Positions 6,016 through 26,449 of a stretch of DNA of 64,000 bases are shown here, in pieces. Both the position numbers and the translations under genes were made by a program. Numbering within the stretch: the stretch's first letter is position 1; each line of letters starts with the position of its first letter. This stretch comes from Gillisia mitskevichiae (GTDB lineage: Bacteria > Bacteroidota > Bacteroidia > Flavobacteriales > Flavobacteriaceae), in contig NZ_RBLG01000002.1 in NCBI RefSeq assembly GCF_003634585.1, positions 124,001-188,000 of the forward strand, in the 5' to 3' direction. The notes under the pieces were generated by a model. It did not search any database. It saw nothing but the letters and a program-made list of their open reading frames with translations, and was not told where the DNA came from.

Positions 6016-6492
6016 ATGAAAAGAGATATAAGTTCATTTCAAAATGTTGGATTAAGTTTAATAATGTTTGCTGTTTTTCCATTCGTATTAGTAGCACAAG
6101 AGAATAATAATATGACTTTTGAAAAATCTCTTATAAGGGATGCAAATAGTTCGGAAATTACTTGGGGACCATGTCCAGAATTTATGCCAGATGGATGTGA
6201 AATTGCCGTTTTACACGGAGATCCGTCTAAACAAAATGTGGATATACTTTTTAAATTACCAGCAAATACAGATATTCCTAACCATTGGCACAATTCTCCA
6301 GAGCGAATGATCTTATTATCTGGAGAACTTGAGGTAACATACAAGGGTGAAGAAACTCAAACTTTAAAACAAGGTTATTATGCTTATGGTCCTGCCAAAA
6401 AACCACATACTGGAAAATGCGGAAACTCTGGACCTTGTGTCCTATTTATTGGTTTTGAAAACCCTTTAGATGCCATACCAGTGAACAAATAA
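6016..6492 (+). CDS. secreted cupin-domain protein
   Basis: 158 residues. Residues 1-28 form a signal peptide (basic start MKRDISSF, hydrophobic stretch LSLIMFAVFPFVLVA, likely cut at AQE). The rest is one cupin barrel: motif 1 is NHWHNSPERMILLSGELEV (two histidines and a glutamate as metal ligands) and motif 2 holds YAYGPAKKPHTGKC. Relatives are annotated as cupin proteins or anti-sigma-factor ChrR-like cupins; here it is a stand-alone exported form. It is 12 bases after the FAD oxidoreductase gene and likely cotranscribed, but the two products act in different compartments unless the oxidase is exported by another route. Confidence 0.82.
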   Translation: MKRDISSFQNVGLSLIMFAVFPFVLVAQENNNMTFEKSLIRDANSSEITWGPCPEFMPDGCEIAVLHGDPSKQNVDILFKLPANTDIPNHWHNSPERMILLSGELEVTYKGEETQTLKQGYYAYGPAKKPHTGKCGNSGPCVLFIGFENPLDAIPVNK

Positions 6493-22444: not shown

Positions 22445-22678
22445 ATGGATAATAATAAAATACCTCAAAAACAGCATAATAATCAGTTACACGGAGTGAA
22501 ACTGGTCGATATCATTGAGCATTTGGTTGAAAAACATGGCTGGGAAAAAATGGGTGAAATGTTACCTATTAGATGTTTTACTCATGATCCTTCAGTGAAA
22601 TCCAGTTTAAAGTTTTTAAGAAAAACCCCTTGGGCAAGAGATAAGGTGGAGAAGATTTATATGGAATCTATTAAATAA
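22445..22678 (+). CDS. VF530-family small protein (DUF2132)
   Basis: 77 residues. Residues about 16-75 match the VF530 family: LHGVKLVDIIEHLVEKHGW, then IRCFTHDPSVKSSLKFLRKTP and WARDKVEKIY. A member has a solved helical structure and the family is proposed to bind DNA, but the role is not established. It lies 24 bases after the zinc-ribbon SDR and is likely cotranscribed. No promoter was seen between them. A terminator follows 140 bases downstream. Confidence 0.9.
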   Translation: MDNNKIPQKQHNNQLHGVKLVDIIEHLVEKHGWEKMGEMLPIRCFTHDPSVKSSLKFLRKTPWARDKVEKIYMESIK

Positions 22679-22817
22679 ATTATTTCTGTAGCTTGTAATT
22701 CTGAAGCTAGCATAGCGAACTGCAGATTTATTTATAAAAAAAATAATTTTATAAAGAATTCCCTTTTTATAGGATTAAAGAACTAAACAAAATATTATTA
22801 TTTTGAAATTCGGAAAG

Positions 22818-22869
22818 AAAAAATGGGGCTAAATAATTGAAATCATATTATTTAGCCCCATTTTTTTTC
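22818..22869 (+). terminator. strong intrinsic terminator
   Basis: A long stem AAAAAATGGGGCTAAATAAT / ATTATTTAGCCCCATTTTTT is followed by more T residues. It ends the SDR-VF530 transcript and insulates the riboswitch and transporter unit downstream. Confidence 0.92.
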
Positions 22870-22978
22870 TTTAATATATAACAAATAATAAATTGTAGTC
22901 TTCTATATAAGTGAGAAACACTTCAAATTTTTAAGGAAAATTAATTCAGTTTTAAGAACTCTCAATTAAATAAAACTT

Positions 22979-22986
22979 TATATTCG
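22979..22986 (+). promoter_or_regulatory. candidate -7 element TATATTCG for the riboswitch-controlled transporter
   Basis: One mismatch to TAnnTTTG (C for the third T). Predicted start near 22990 coincides with the first base of the riboswitch-like fold. No clear TTG -33 element. Confidence 0.4.
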
Positions 22987-22987
22987 C

Positions 22988-23058
22988 GGCTAATTATCAA
23001 GAATCTCAAGAGAGATAGCAACCTGCAATAACGAGCAAGGTGCTAAAAATGATAAGCC
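22988..23058 (+). promoter_or_regulatory. compact SAM-clan (SAM-I/IV-like) riboswitch candidate
   Basis: The segment has the conserved SAM-I landmarks in order: TTATCAAGA, GCAACC, AGGTGCTAA and GATAAG. Pairings are P1 TTATCA (22994-22999) with TGATAA (23050-23055), extended by GGC/GCC; P2 ATCTC (23003-23007) with GAGAT (23012-23016), AAGA loop; P3 AGCA (23017-23020) with TGCT (23041-23044), then CC/GG and TGC/GCA with unpaired A23021 and A23038. P1 and the P3 internal loop form the SAM pocket in SAM-I and are kept, but P2 lacks the kink-turn and pseudoknot loop and P4 is absent. It precedes an NhaC-type gene; NhaC-type MetT transporters are known SAM-riboswitch targets. No terminator follows, so control would be translational. 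Confidence 0.65.
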
Positions 23059-23139
23059 ATTTCTTTGGAACAAATGTTAATCACTACTTCCTCTATATTG
23101 CTTTTATTTCCTCTTTTAAGATTCATAAAAATTTTATTT

Positions 23140-24483
23140 ATGAATAATTCGAATGCGACTCAAACCAAGGGGAATTTTTATGCTCTATTACCCCTATTCC
23201 TATTTGTTTTAACCTTTTTAGGTGCAGGCATCTATCTAAATGATTTCTACGAGCTACCATCTCCAATTGCAGTAATACTAGGGATAGTATTAGCATTGGC
23301 CATGTTTAAAGGCAGTATAAACGCAAAAATAGCTACTCTTTTAAAAGGTTGTGGAGATGATAAAATTTTAACCATGTGCCTTATCTATTTACTGGCGGGT
23401 GCATTTACGGTTGTTTGCAAAGCAACCGGGAGTGTAGACGCCATTGTAGAACTTGGGTTGCAATATATCTCTATTCATTGGTTATATGCTGGGGTATTTA
23501 TAATTGCGGCATTTCTCTCTATTGCAACCGGAACTTCTGTTGGAGCAATTGTTGCTTTAGGAGCTGTTGTAATGGGTTTTGCGGAAACTACAGATGTTTC
23601 TCTAGGAATATTAAGTGCCTCACTTTTAGGCGGTGCTATGTTTGGTGATAACTTGTCTATAATATCAGATACCACAATCGCTGCTACCCAATCTTTGCAA
23701 GTTAATATGAAAGATAAATTCAAGCAAAATATACTAATTGCTGGACCTGTAGCTATAATCACCGTTGGAATATTACTGGTTCAAGGCTTTGCTTTAAATG
23801 ATAATATTCAATTAGACACTTCTTCTTCCATAGAAATTATTAAAATACTGCCCTATCTGTTGGTGTTAACGCTAGCTGTGGTTGGATTAAATGTTTTTGT
23901 GGTACTATTTATAGGAATAATTGCTGCGGGAATTTTAGGAATTTATTACGGAGATTTTGGCTTGCTGGAATTTGCTAAACTTTCTTATGAAGGTTTTACT
24001 AGTATGACAGAGATTTTTCTTCTTTCATTATTAACTGGTGGTTTAGCAGCCTTGGTAACTAGGGCAGGGGGAATAACCTTTCTTATAAATTTTATCACCA
24101 CTAAGATGAATTCTAAAACAGCTTATTTTGGCATCTCTGGTTTAGTAAGCGCTACTAACTTAGCAATCGCAAATAATACAGTTTCGATTATCATAATTGG
24201 TCCCATTGCAAAACAACTAAGCGATCAGTTTAAGTTAAACCCGAAAAAAGTAGCATCTATCCTGGATATTTTTGCTTGTTGTATTCAAGGCTTATTGCCT
24301 TATGGAGCACAATGCCTTATTATTCTAAGCTTGGCTGGGGGGAAAATTGATTATCTTGATTTAGTTAGTAACTCATGGTATCTCGGCCTATTATTTATAG
24401 GAACTCTCATTTATATTCAGATCTCATCAAAGAGAACTCCATTAAGGCCTTTAAATGAAACTGTAGAGTTTTGGCATATTTAA
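23140..24483 (+). CDS. NhaC-family antiporter, probable MetT-like methionine transporter
   Basis: 447 residues with about 11 membrane helices. It has the family pattern ATGTSVGAIVALGAVVMG and GGAMFGDNLSIISDTTIAA, the substrate/ion site region of NhaC proteins. The frame is open further upstream (TTG 23065, ATG 23074); I chose ATG 23140 because MNNSNATQTKGNFYALLPL aligns with usual NhaC N-termini, but ATG 23074 lies only 18 bases after the riboswitch and cannot be excluded. NhaC members under SAM riboswitches were named MetT and proposed to import methionine; the upstream SAM-clan motif supports that role here over Na+/H+ exchange. Followed 65 bases later by two pirin genes. Confidence 0.82.
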   Translation: MNNSNATQTKGNFYALLPLFLFVLTFLGAGIYLNDFYELPSPIAVILGIVLALAMFKGSINAKIATLLKGCGDDKILTMCLIYLLAGAFTVVCKATGSVDAIVELGLQYISIHWLYAGVFIIAAFLSIATGTSVGAIVALGAVVMGFAETTDVSLGILSASLLGGAMFGDNLSIISDTTIAATQSLQVNMKDKFKQNILIAGPVAIITVGILLVQGFALNDNIQLDTSSSIEIIKILPYLLVLTLAVVGLNVFVVLFIGIIAAGILGIYYGDFGLLEFAKLSYEGFTSMTEIFLLSLLTGGLAALVTRAGGITFLINFITTKMNSKTAYFGISGLVSATNLAIANNTVSIIIIGPIAKQLSDQFKLNPKKVASILDIFACCIQGLLPYGAQCLIILSLAGGKIDYLDLVSNSWYLGLLFIGTLIYIQISSKRTPLRPLNETVEFWHI

Positions 24484-24548: not shown

Positions 24549-25568
24549 ATGGTTAATACTAAGATCAAAAATATAAAACCTCTTGGCTTTCCTTGGGAAA
24601 CTAGTGACCCATTTTTGTTTTGTGCTCACCATAGGGATGAATATCCTAAGGGGAATAATAAAATGGGGCCTGCGGTTTCTTTAGATGATAGAAATATAGG
24701 ACAAGATTTTACTTTAAAAGATGGTTGGAGAATGTATCATGGTAGTACAATGCCGGGTTTTCCTTTTCATCCACACCGTGGATTCGAAACTATTACCATC
24801 AATAAAGAAGGTTTTGTAGATCATACAGATTCTTTAGGCGCAGCTGGAAGATTTGGAGCAGGAGATGTGCAATGGATGACAGCAGGAAAAGGAGTACAAC
24901 ATTCAGAAATCTTCCCACTTATAAAGGAAAATGAAGGAAATCCTTTGGAGATCTTTCAGATATGGTTAAATCTTCCTAAAGCAAATAAAATGGTAGCTCC
25001 TCATTTTAAAATGTTATGGGCGGAGGATATTCCACTTATTACAAAGGAGGATTCCAATGGCAATAAAACAGAGATCAACTTAATAGCTGGAAAGTTAGGA
25101 GATGTTTCGGCGCTTTCCCCAACTCCAGACTCATGGGCTGCAGACCCAGATAATGAAGTGATGGTACTTACCATTAAGATGGAGGCAAATGCAATTTACA
25201 CTCTGCCTGCAAGTGAGGAAGATGTGACTAGAAGTTTATACTTTTATAAAGGAAATAATATAAGTATTGAAGGAAATGAAATTGCTGAAGCTCATGTGAT
25301 CCATGTAGTTTCTAAAGAAGATCTGGAAATAAAAAATGGTGAAACCGAGGCCTTTCTTTTAGTGCTTCAAGGAAAACCTATAAATGAACCAGTGGCTCAA
25401 TATGGTCCATTTGTAATGAATACTCAAAGTGAAATTCAGCAGGCATTACAAGATTTTCAACAAACTCAGTTTGGTGGGTGGCCATGGCCGGAAACCGAGC
25501 AAGCACATCCCCGGGATAAAGGTAGGTTTGCATTGCATGCAGACGGAAAAGAAGAAATTAGGGAATAA
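24549..25568 (+). CDS. pirin-family bicupin protein (pirin 1)
   Basis: 339 residues, longer than most pirins (about 290). The N-terminal cupin holds the pirin metal motif FPFHPHRGFETIT, then DVQWMTAGKGVQHSEIFP with the later His and Glu ligands. A second cupin follows (VMVLTIKMEANAIYTLP), and it ends with the family motif PFVMNTQSEIQQALQDFQ plus a tail rich in Trp/Pro (GGWPWPETEQAH). Bacterial pirins act as quercetin 2,3-dioxygenases or as regulators; the role here is unknown. Two bases separate it from pirin 2, so they are an operon. Confidence 0.9.
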   Translation: MVNTKIKNIKPLGFPWETSDPFLFCAHHRDEYPKGNNKMGPAVSLDDRNIGQDFTLKDGWRMYHGSTMPGFPFHPHRGFETITINKEGFVDHTDSLGAAGRFGAGDVQWMTAGKGVQHSEIFPLIKENEGNPLEIFQIWLNLPKANKMVAPHFKMLWAEDIPLITKEDSNGNKTEINLIAGKLGDVSALSPTPDSWAADPDNEVMVLTIKMEANAIYTLPASEEDVTRSLYFYKGNNISIEGNEIAEAHVIHVVSKEDLEIKNGETEAFLLVLQGKPINEPVAQYGPFVMNTQSEIQQALQDFQQTQFGGWPWPETEQAHPRDKGRFALHADGKEEIRE

Positions 25569-25570
25569 CT

Positions 25571-26449
25571 ATGGAAGAAACAGTTTTTAAAAAAGTAAAA
25601 TATATACTTCCGGCAGAGAAAATAGATATGGATGGTTTTCCTGTAAAACAGGCTTTACCTACTCATAAAATTCAGCAGGTAGATCCTTTTTTATTGTTGC
25701 ATCATGCTACAGTGAAGTTCAATAAGAACAGGCCTGCTAAACACCAAGGTGTTGGACCACACCCGCATAGAGGATTTTCTCCGGTTACTTTTATTATAGA
25801 GGGCGAAGTAAGACATCGGGATAGTTGGAATCATGATCAGGTTGCTAAGGCAGGAGAAGTACAATGGATGCACGCCGGGGCTGGAATTGTTCATAGCGAA
25901 AGACCATCGGAAGAAGTGGTGCAAGCAACCGGCAAACAAGAGATCATTCAGTTATGGATAAATAGTCCAAGTTCGGCTAAATTGCAACCACCGGAATACA
26001 CTTATCTTTCTATAGAAACAATTCCAGTGCTTATTTCAGAAGATGAAAAAATAAAGACAAAACTAATTGCTGGAAATTATAATCAGCAGAGAGGAAAAGT
26101 AATTCCAAAAAGTGAATTATTAGTGCTTTGGGGAAATGGGCAAGAAGGAGGAATCGAAAATTATCTTATTCCCCAAGATTTTAATTGCATGTTATATCTT
26201 ATTAAAGGAAGCATAAATATTAAAGGATATGGCTTAGTAGAAGCAGAACAACTTGTGGTTTTTGGAATTAATGGAGATAGCATTGAAGTCACTCTTAAAC
26301 ATGATTCTCAGTTTTTAATACTTTCGGGGAAACCGCTAGATGAAAAAGTCACTCAACATGGTCCTTATGTTATGAATACCCAAACAGAGGTTTTAGAAGC
26401 AATGAGAGATTATCAAATGGGTAAAATGGGGATTCTTATTGAAGATTAA
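25571..26449 (+). CDS. pirin-family bicupin protein (pirin 2)
   Basis: 292 residues, the normal pirin length. Metal motif PHPHRGFSPVTFIIEGEV, then EVQWMHAGAGIVHSERP supplying the remaining His and Glu ligands, a second cupin with NCMLYLIKGSINIKGYG, and the ending GPYVMNTQTEVLEAMRDYQ. It starts 2 bases after pirin 1 and shares its ending motif, so the two may have arisen by duplication, though overall they differ clearly. Cytoplasmic. No gene follows for 331 bases. Confidence 0.9.
   Translation: MEETVFKKVKYILPAEKIDMDGFPVKQALPTHKIQQVDPFLLLHHATVKFNKNRPAKHQGVGPHPHRGFSPVTFIIEGEVRHRDSWNHDQVAKAGEVQWMHAGAGIVHSERPSEEVVQATGKQEIIQLWINSPSSAKLQPPEYTYLSIETIPVLISEDEKIKTKLIAGNYNQQRGKVIPKSELLVLWGNGQEGGIENYLIPQDFNCMLYLIKGSINIKGYGLVEAEQLVVFGINGDSIEVTLKHDSQFLILSGKPLDEKVTQHGPYVMNTQTEVLEAMRDYQMGKMGILIED

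Follow-up and report, generated by a model that had tools for sequence, protein, structure and literature searches.

SAM-I/IV RNAs have been described as lacking an internal loop in P2 (PMC2864571, in excerpt), and the member that has been crystallised possesses a P4 helix (PMC6890682, in excerpt). MetT is described as a methionine transporter of the NhaC family, with the metT genes of V. cholerae and Shewanella being repressed by MetJ (PMC3228920, in excerpt), and as a predicted sodium-dependent methionine permease (PMC4239095, in excerpt). We found no account of the expression platform discussed below in the open-licence literature, as far as the available portions of its texts, including PMC12121620 and PMC12452182, extend.

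The window analysed here is the whole stretch of 64,000 nucleotides from Gillisia mitskevichiae, and coordinates refer to it unless stated otherwise. It contains a SAM-I/IV riboswitch upstream of a probable metT gene, for which we propose a translational switch that would hide the start codon itself. Such a switch would give work on gene control in Bacteroidota a named target and a design open to testing.

Identity and Extent of the Riboswitch

A cmscan search of the whole window returned a single Rfam match at the gathering threshold, to the SAM-I/IV family RF01725, which is also the best SAM-clan match in the window. With an E value of 5.5e-07 the match stands far above chance, and it aligns model positions 1-99 of 99 over 96 nt. 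The aptamer, its parts and its neighbours are the following.

22979..22986, plus strand: probable -7 promoter element TATATTCG, of the pattern TAnnTTYG, at a conserved position upstream of P1
22989..23084, plus strand: full-length SAM-I/IV aptamer RF01725, 58.1 bits against a gathering threshold of 41.1
22994-22998 with 23051-23055, plus strand: P1, UUAUC with GAUAA, paired in 99.3% of cells, with four of the five pairs invariant
23003-23007 with 23012-23016, plus strand: P2, four of five pairs changed on both sides, each in 4 to 6 of 57 distinct alignment rows
23017-23026 with 23035-23044, plus strand: P3, with the SAM-pocket internal loop; 100% paired, without variation among 57 distinct rows
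23029..23033, plus strand: loop strand of PK2 (L3, UAACG), pairing with 23075-23079
23057-23059 with 23066-23068, plus strand: P5, 98.6% of cells paired
23075..23079, plus strand: 3′ strand of PK2 (UGUUA), overlapping an in-frame ATG at 23074; 98.6% of PK2 cells paired
23140..24483, plus strand: NhaC-family transporter gene, probable metT, PF03553 with E 5.7e-21

Judged by its sequence, the element is a real and complete SAM-I/IV aptamer with P5 and PK2. Its P2 consists of five consecutive pairs without internal loop or kink-turn, a P5 hairpin lies 3′ of P1, and PK2 joins L3 to the 3′ tail, all as in RF01725. The P2a/P2b arrangement with PK-1 that marks SAM-IV (RF00634) is absent, P2 being single and short, and the kink-turn in P2 and the P4 helix of SAM-I (RF00162) are likewise missing, with one short P2 helix and no P4. 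The family is already known, the aptamer is an ordinary one, and the window adds a further member.

The first-pass annotation had recognised a SAM-clan riboswitch at this place and had guessed that it might belong to the SAM-I/IV group. Comparison with the SAM-clan models, which it had suggested, bears out both points, as RF01725 matches above its gathering threshold over all 99 positions. The P1 pairing, the five-pair P2 and the P3 with unpaired A residues had also been read as we find them. The limits given then, 22988-23058, were too narrow, cutting off most of P5 and the 3′ strand of PK2. The element had further been taken for a SAM-I riboswitch in stripped form that, if real, would rank among the smallest in the clan. 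P2 is indeed simple and a P4 is lacking, but both features are normal for the RF01725 consensus and are no sign of stripping. Although P1, P3 and the pocket letters are shared with SAM-I, this interpretation can practically be dismissed: the RF01725 match is full length, P5 and a covarying PK2 are present, and the equivalent place in a genus mate (G303) scores 61.1 bits with RF01725 against 31.3 bits, below the cut-off, with RF00162.

Covariation of the Aptamer Helices

For comparison we used 61 non-redundant leaders with the aptamer upstream of homologous NhaC/MetT genes, gathered by a text pattern and alignment to the window protein and yielding 57 distinct alignment rows. Duplicates were dropped if the last 75 aptamer bases and the first 60 spacer bases were identical, and L002 and L090, which are one stretch, were counted once.

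Over the 57 distinct rows, 99.2% of the structure cells are paired; shifting the 3′ partners by 1 to 3 columns reduces this share to 23.1-41.5%. Changes on both sides occur in seven pairs (four in P2, two in PK2 and one in P5), compared with a mean of 3.4 in shuffles that ignore the relatedness of the leaders; 2 of 500 such shuffles reach seven, and none of 500 reaches the covariation score. The count of further pair types in the alignment of the 61 leaders, 12, is below the 13.7 of the shuffles. Among the aptamer helices, PK2 gives the clearest covariation signal. Its outer pair (columns 52-105) is UA in 34 distinct rows, CG in 18, another combination in 3 and gapped in 2, and its inner pair (columns 56-101) is AU in 28, GU in 21 and GC in 7. 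The inner pair of P5 is AU in 26 rows, GC in 3, another combination in 1 and gapped in 27. The compensatory changes that the first-pass annotation had proposed to look for in P1, P2 and P3 are found in P2, as also in PK2 and P5, whereas four of five P1 pairs and all of P3 are invariant; P3, being the same in every row, gives no covariation test.

Membership of the family indicates that the ligand is probably S-adenosylmethionine, and the finding that relatives of the transporter stand under SAM-I in Pontibacter and Bacillus/Peribacillus (see below) supports SAM as the signal. Ligand specificity is not readable from these data, and the aptamer might have drifted to another ligand, for example S-adenosylhomocysteine, or be a decaying copy. 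We regard either as highly improbable, with GCAACC and AGCAAGGUGCU invariant in the 61 leaders and the same SAM-I loci elsewhere speaking against it.

The first-pass annotation had placed the leader right after a -7 element, and this position is shared widely. Of the 61 leaders, 55 have TAnnTTTG, which we take to be the flavobacterial -7 promoter type, no more than 40 nt before P1, and 57 have the broader TAnnTTYG there; in a coding stretch used as a control, TAnnTTTG occurs in 0 of 61. By itself the motif is no better than chance in the window, with 117 matches against 121.6 expected. Further upstream, a perfect inverted repeat, ATGGGGCTAAATAAT / ATTATTTAGCCCCAT, occupies 22823-22861, flanked by A and T runs. 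It is probably a bidirectional terminator upstream of the metT unit, and our terminator scan, which allows loops of at most 8, overlooked it because its loop is 9.

The Transporter Gene and Its Probable Start Codon

The downstream gene had been annotated as an NhaC/MetT-type transporter, and its product matches PF03553, the NhaC Na+/H+ antiporter family, with 75.5 bits against a cut-off of 23. TIGR00931 reaches 87.3 bits, below its cut-off of 370, and neither an equivalog model at cut-off nor a MetT model is among the NCBIfam or Pfam matches of the window protein. With PF03553 matched and no equivalog model at cut-off, metT is the probable identity that we infer, methionine being the presumed substrate. 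The closest named relatives among the loci compared are from Gillisia, with the transporter 88% identical in the best segment. Two adjacent pirin-family genes lie downstream of metT, at 24549-26449.

The open frame of metT extends back to TTG 23065 and ATG 23074. The start codon is probably neither of these but ATG 23140, because an alignment of homologous N-termini puts it there, and we read ATG 23074 as a by-product of PK2 pairing. Were the gene to start at ATG 23074, the SAM-stabilised PK2 could cover the start directly, without any further platform. In the window this ATG shares the reading frame of metT, 51 of the 61 leaders have ATG at this place, and the RF01725 consensus has a ribosome-site-like aaggag adjoining the PK2 strand. 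Such direct occlusion is nevertheless unlikely. The triplet is ACG in 9 leaders and TTG in 1, and the frame of the ATG relative to the aligned gene start is random (19/17/15 over the 51 leaders). Substitutions are distributed over the codon positions as 111/111/127 in 44 pairs, with no clear preference for the third, and the aligned starts lie 36-91 nt downstream of PK2 (median 59, 61 leaders). Runs such as MLTHTSTYLLLFPF had suggested a conserved leader peptide beginning at the same ATG. This was rejected on the same phases and differences, one other frame being equally open; the rejection applies to the peptide as a general feature, single genera aside.

A Proposed Start-Codon Switch

With ATG 23140 as the probable start, the spacer holds the elements of a possible switch.

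23001-23006, 23008-23014 and 23017-23021, plus strand: aptamer half of an anti-aptamer helix, in duplex with 23098-23124
23098-23102 (UUGCU), 23111-23117 (CUCUUUU) and 23119-23124 (AGAUUC), plus strand: switching strand
23121-23129 with 23137-23145, plus strand: start-codon hairpin AUUCAUAAA / UUUAUGAAU, with the AUG within the stem

We hypothesize that an abundance of S-adenosylmethionine causes the SAM-I/IV riboswitch with which the metT mRNA begins to turn translation off. In the absence of SAM, 23098-23124 would pair with the 5′ half of the aptamer (the end of J1/2, P2 and J2/3). In the window the 5′ arm of the start-codon hairpin overlaps this switching strand, and the anti-aptamer helix would take the arm away and leave AUG 23140 open. 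With SAM, the P1-P2-P3-P5-PK2 form would set the switching strand free, its end AUUCAUAAA would pair with UUUAUGAAU, and the AUG would be buried. We consider SAM-OFF translational control of metT through burial of the start codon, without Shine-Dalgarno sites, to be fairly likely, with the OFF direction and the choice of translation over transcription both presumed.

In Bacteroidota, most translation is initiated without Shine-Dalgarno sites, and common riboswitch platforms have less to hide there. Shine-Dalgarno-like words stand near the start in only 2 of the 61 leaders. No terminator-like hairpin with a U run was found by the scan of 22600-23300, in which 0.4 are expected by chance, and one of the nine pairs in the start-codon hairpin is G-C, with no U run following the hairpin. 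Taken together, these observations indicate that the AUG itself is likely what is hidden. An intrinsic terminator as the platform was rejected on the result of the scan. Transcription attenuation in a broader sense would have the switch control RNA polymerase, or the access of Rho, within the 60-nt spacer. The alternative folds would be equally usable for transcription control, and Rho could perhaps act on a U-rich untranslated spacer; the absence of a terminator-like hairpin and the composition of the start-codon hairpin nevertheless make attenuation improbable.

The predicted energetics of the window leader are consistent with start-codon burial. Its free form is the anti-aptamer fold, at -31.2 kcal/mol, with the AUG unpaired at a probability of 0.47-0.70; in the anti state this probability is 0.58-0.87. 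The aptamer form, computed with P1 and P3 forced and the PK2 strands single, lies at -24.4 kcal/mol and leaves the AUG unpaired at only 0.00-0.01. A gap of about 7 kcal/mol, less the contributions of PK2 and the pocket, is one that ligand binding could cover. Against leaders with shuffled spacers, which served as the null in all whole-leader access tests, both the gap (6.96) and the change in AUG access (0.61 to 0.01) were reached by 0 of 30 shuffles. The duplex of 23001-23021 with 23098-23124 reaches -16.8 kcal/mol, where shuffles average -10.5 (z -2.63, p 0.03), and the free fold of the whole leader has z -1.93, with 8 of 200 shuffles as good.

Possible Conservation of the Proposed Platform Across Leaders

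The complementarity extends to many relatives. Among the 61 metT leaders, 41 have an anti-aptamer duplex that beats dinucleotide shuffles at p < 0.05 (mean z -2.21; leader p-values ignore relatedness and, the leaders being related, are too small). All eight leaders of the window genus in the set are included (L001, L020, L049-L052, L061 and L135). In the four Elizabethkingia leaders an anti-aptamer helix is lacking (p 0.39-0.76), and in three of these AUG access stays the same. For SAM-I/IV leaders that do not precede metT, with start codons assigned by a cruder rule, the fraction at p < 0.05 is 14 of 29. This set began with 41 loci, of which 6 were unscorable (no open reading frame or too short a spacer), leaving 35 scored, from which 6 metT duplicates were dropped.

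To compare strands between organisms, leaders were grouped by organism name, each locus without a name forming its own group. In 46 of 61 leaders the own downstream strand pairs better than the mean of other-group strands, by 2.9 kcal/mol on average (Wilcoxon 1.7e-6, again too small, since relatedness is ignored). At the median, 22% of the strands from other groups equal the own strand in pairing, so the specificity is loose. The letters of the strand vary by clade and track the aptamer: some Flavobacterium combine ACGAA in the aptamer with UUCGU in the strand, Cloacibacterium has AGGAAC and GUUCCU, and Gillisia has GAAUCUC and GAGAUUC. The start region of Lacinutrix-type leaders, AAAAAGAAAAAUGGCAA, mimics the aptamer's AAAAGGAGAUAGCAA, which suggests that both compete for the same strand. 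No compensatory changes were noticed in the AUG-side arm of the start-codon hairpin.

Access to the start codon follows the same trend less uniformly. When only the bases of the best duplex were blocked, the mean unpaired probability of the AUG over the 61 leaders rose from 0.25 to 0.50, with access gaining more than 0.05 in 44 leaders and losing more than 0.05 in 6. As this test has no null, it was repeated on whole leaders with shuffles, giving weaker numbers. In the aptamer state the AUG is less accessible than in shuffles (0.24 versus 0.40; 42 of 61 leaders; p 5.5e-5), and access changes more (0.10 versus 0.01; 38 of 61; p 0.015). The energy gap between the aptamer fold and the free fold is not above that of shuffles, being larger in 30 of 61 (p 0.27), which counts against the switch. 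A change in access of more than 0.2 in the expected sense is displayed by only 18 of 61 leaders, five of the eight from the window genus among them, and the reverse by 4. Several Lacinutrix-type leaders (e.g., L002, L053 and L056, at 0.02-0.04) hide the AUG in both states, which lowers our confidence in the switch and in a shared platform. On these model calculations, the switch mechanism has good support in the window and its nearest relatives, and only moderate support across the family.

We tentatively suggest, at somewhat less than even weight, that flavobacterial SAM-I/IV riboswitches may share a platform suited to leaders free of Shine-Dalgarno sites. In it, a spacer strand would be complementary both to the P2/J2-3 half of the aptamer and to the start region, and the strand would be re-tuned clade by clade against varying aptamer letters. 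In the genome of the window, the SAM regulon would at the same time be split among three riboswitch classes.

Distribution and the SAM Regulon

In 299 sampled genomes of the same family, RF01725 has a match in 42, above the cut-off in 41, at 49 places altogether; SAM-I/IV is present in 9 of 16 genomes of the window genus. Of 80 transporter loci kept, 44 carry the aptamer upstream by a simple pattern. A looser pattern added L098, and L106, whose aptamer was seen by eye only, is in no count. The 33 loci without the pattern, with L124 left out, were searched for other Rfam families. Eight of them, five from Pontibacter and three from Bacillus/Peribacillus, have SAM-I upstream of the transporter relative, at a distance of 0.2-0.8 kb from the matched portion of the gene. 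In the remaining 25, the stretch searched contains no SAM riboswitch that reaches the gathering threshold. That a single transporter family stands under two classes of SAM riboswitch is good indirect evidence for a role in methionine metabolism. Cobalamin riboswitches were seen near NhaC relatives without a SAM riboswitch in Kaistella/Chryseobacterium (L067, L082 and L087; at about 6200-6470, minus strand).

Two further SAM riboswitches were located in the genome of the window, both within one stretch (L141, G000:C1:1208000-1227500).

16443-16548 of L141: SAM-I, 83 bits, directly before the first part of the methionine synthase gene metH
4979-5035 of L141: SAM-II (RF01726), 56 bits, before metK

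From these matches, the SAM regulon of this genome appears to be split, with SAM-II at metK, SAM-I at metH and SAM-I/IV at metT. Within the genus, SAM-I is above the cut-off in 12 of 16 genomes, a weaker thirteenth match being the SAM-I/IV place of G303, SAM-II is found in 14, and all three classes are above the cut-off in seven. A search of the own genome for SAM_alpha (RF00521) gave no match, but its control likewise matched nowhere.

Flavobacterial SAM-I/IV riboswitches away from metT often precede genes of no known family. They comprise L005, L009, L011, L014, L015, L017, L021, L023, L026, L030, L031, L033-L036, L038-L047 and L136-L138. Among 20 downstream proteins (first to third genes at 16 of these loci), 15 have no Pfam match at the thresholds used. 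At L046 a phage-type integrase lies between two riboswitches, and at L047 a cytosine DNA methylase lies downstream. In a genus mate (G311), SAM-I/IV occurs three times on a single contig within a span of 4 kb: L136, L137 (G311:C166:16721-17292) and L138 (20481-20579). The two proteins scanned downstream of L137 and L138 have no Pfam match.

Comparison with Known Systems

The window aptamer shares with SAM-I/IV (RF01725) its P1, a P2 without internal loop, P3, P5 and the PK2 from L3 to the 3′ tail, and like the RF01725 consensus it has no P4. The env8 RNA, a SAM-I/IV member with a crystal structure (4L81), and the window both contain GCAACCUG and CAAGGUGCU (env8 sequence from PMC5393176, in excerpt). 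Where the solved structure forms its P4 (PMC6890682, in excerpt), the window has six unpaired bases, 23045-23050. The consensus tail carries aaggag by the PK2 strand, as if other members hid a ribosome site there, whereas the window tail is without it.

SAM-I (S box, RF00162) has the same P1/P3 core and pocket, but differs in its P2 kink-turn, its P4 and its lack of PK2 (partly PMC6890682, in excerpt). SAM-IV (RF00634) shares P5 and PK2 with the window; its P2 is split into P2a and P2b with PK-1 (PMC6890682, in excerpt), in contrast to the simple hairpin found here. PK2 is what separates SAM-I/IV and SAM-IV from SAM-I.

The proposed platform follows the antisequester/sequester logic of translational riboswitches in which a sequester hairpin covers the ribosome-binding site and the AUG (PMC10907184, in excerpt). 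In the window, by contrast, the AUG itself would be the target, in keeping with the rarity of Shine-Dalgarno-like words among the leaders. The platform is only modestly new, and what stays of interest is the hiding of the start codon together with the three-class regulon.
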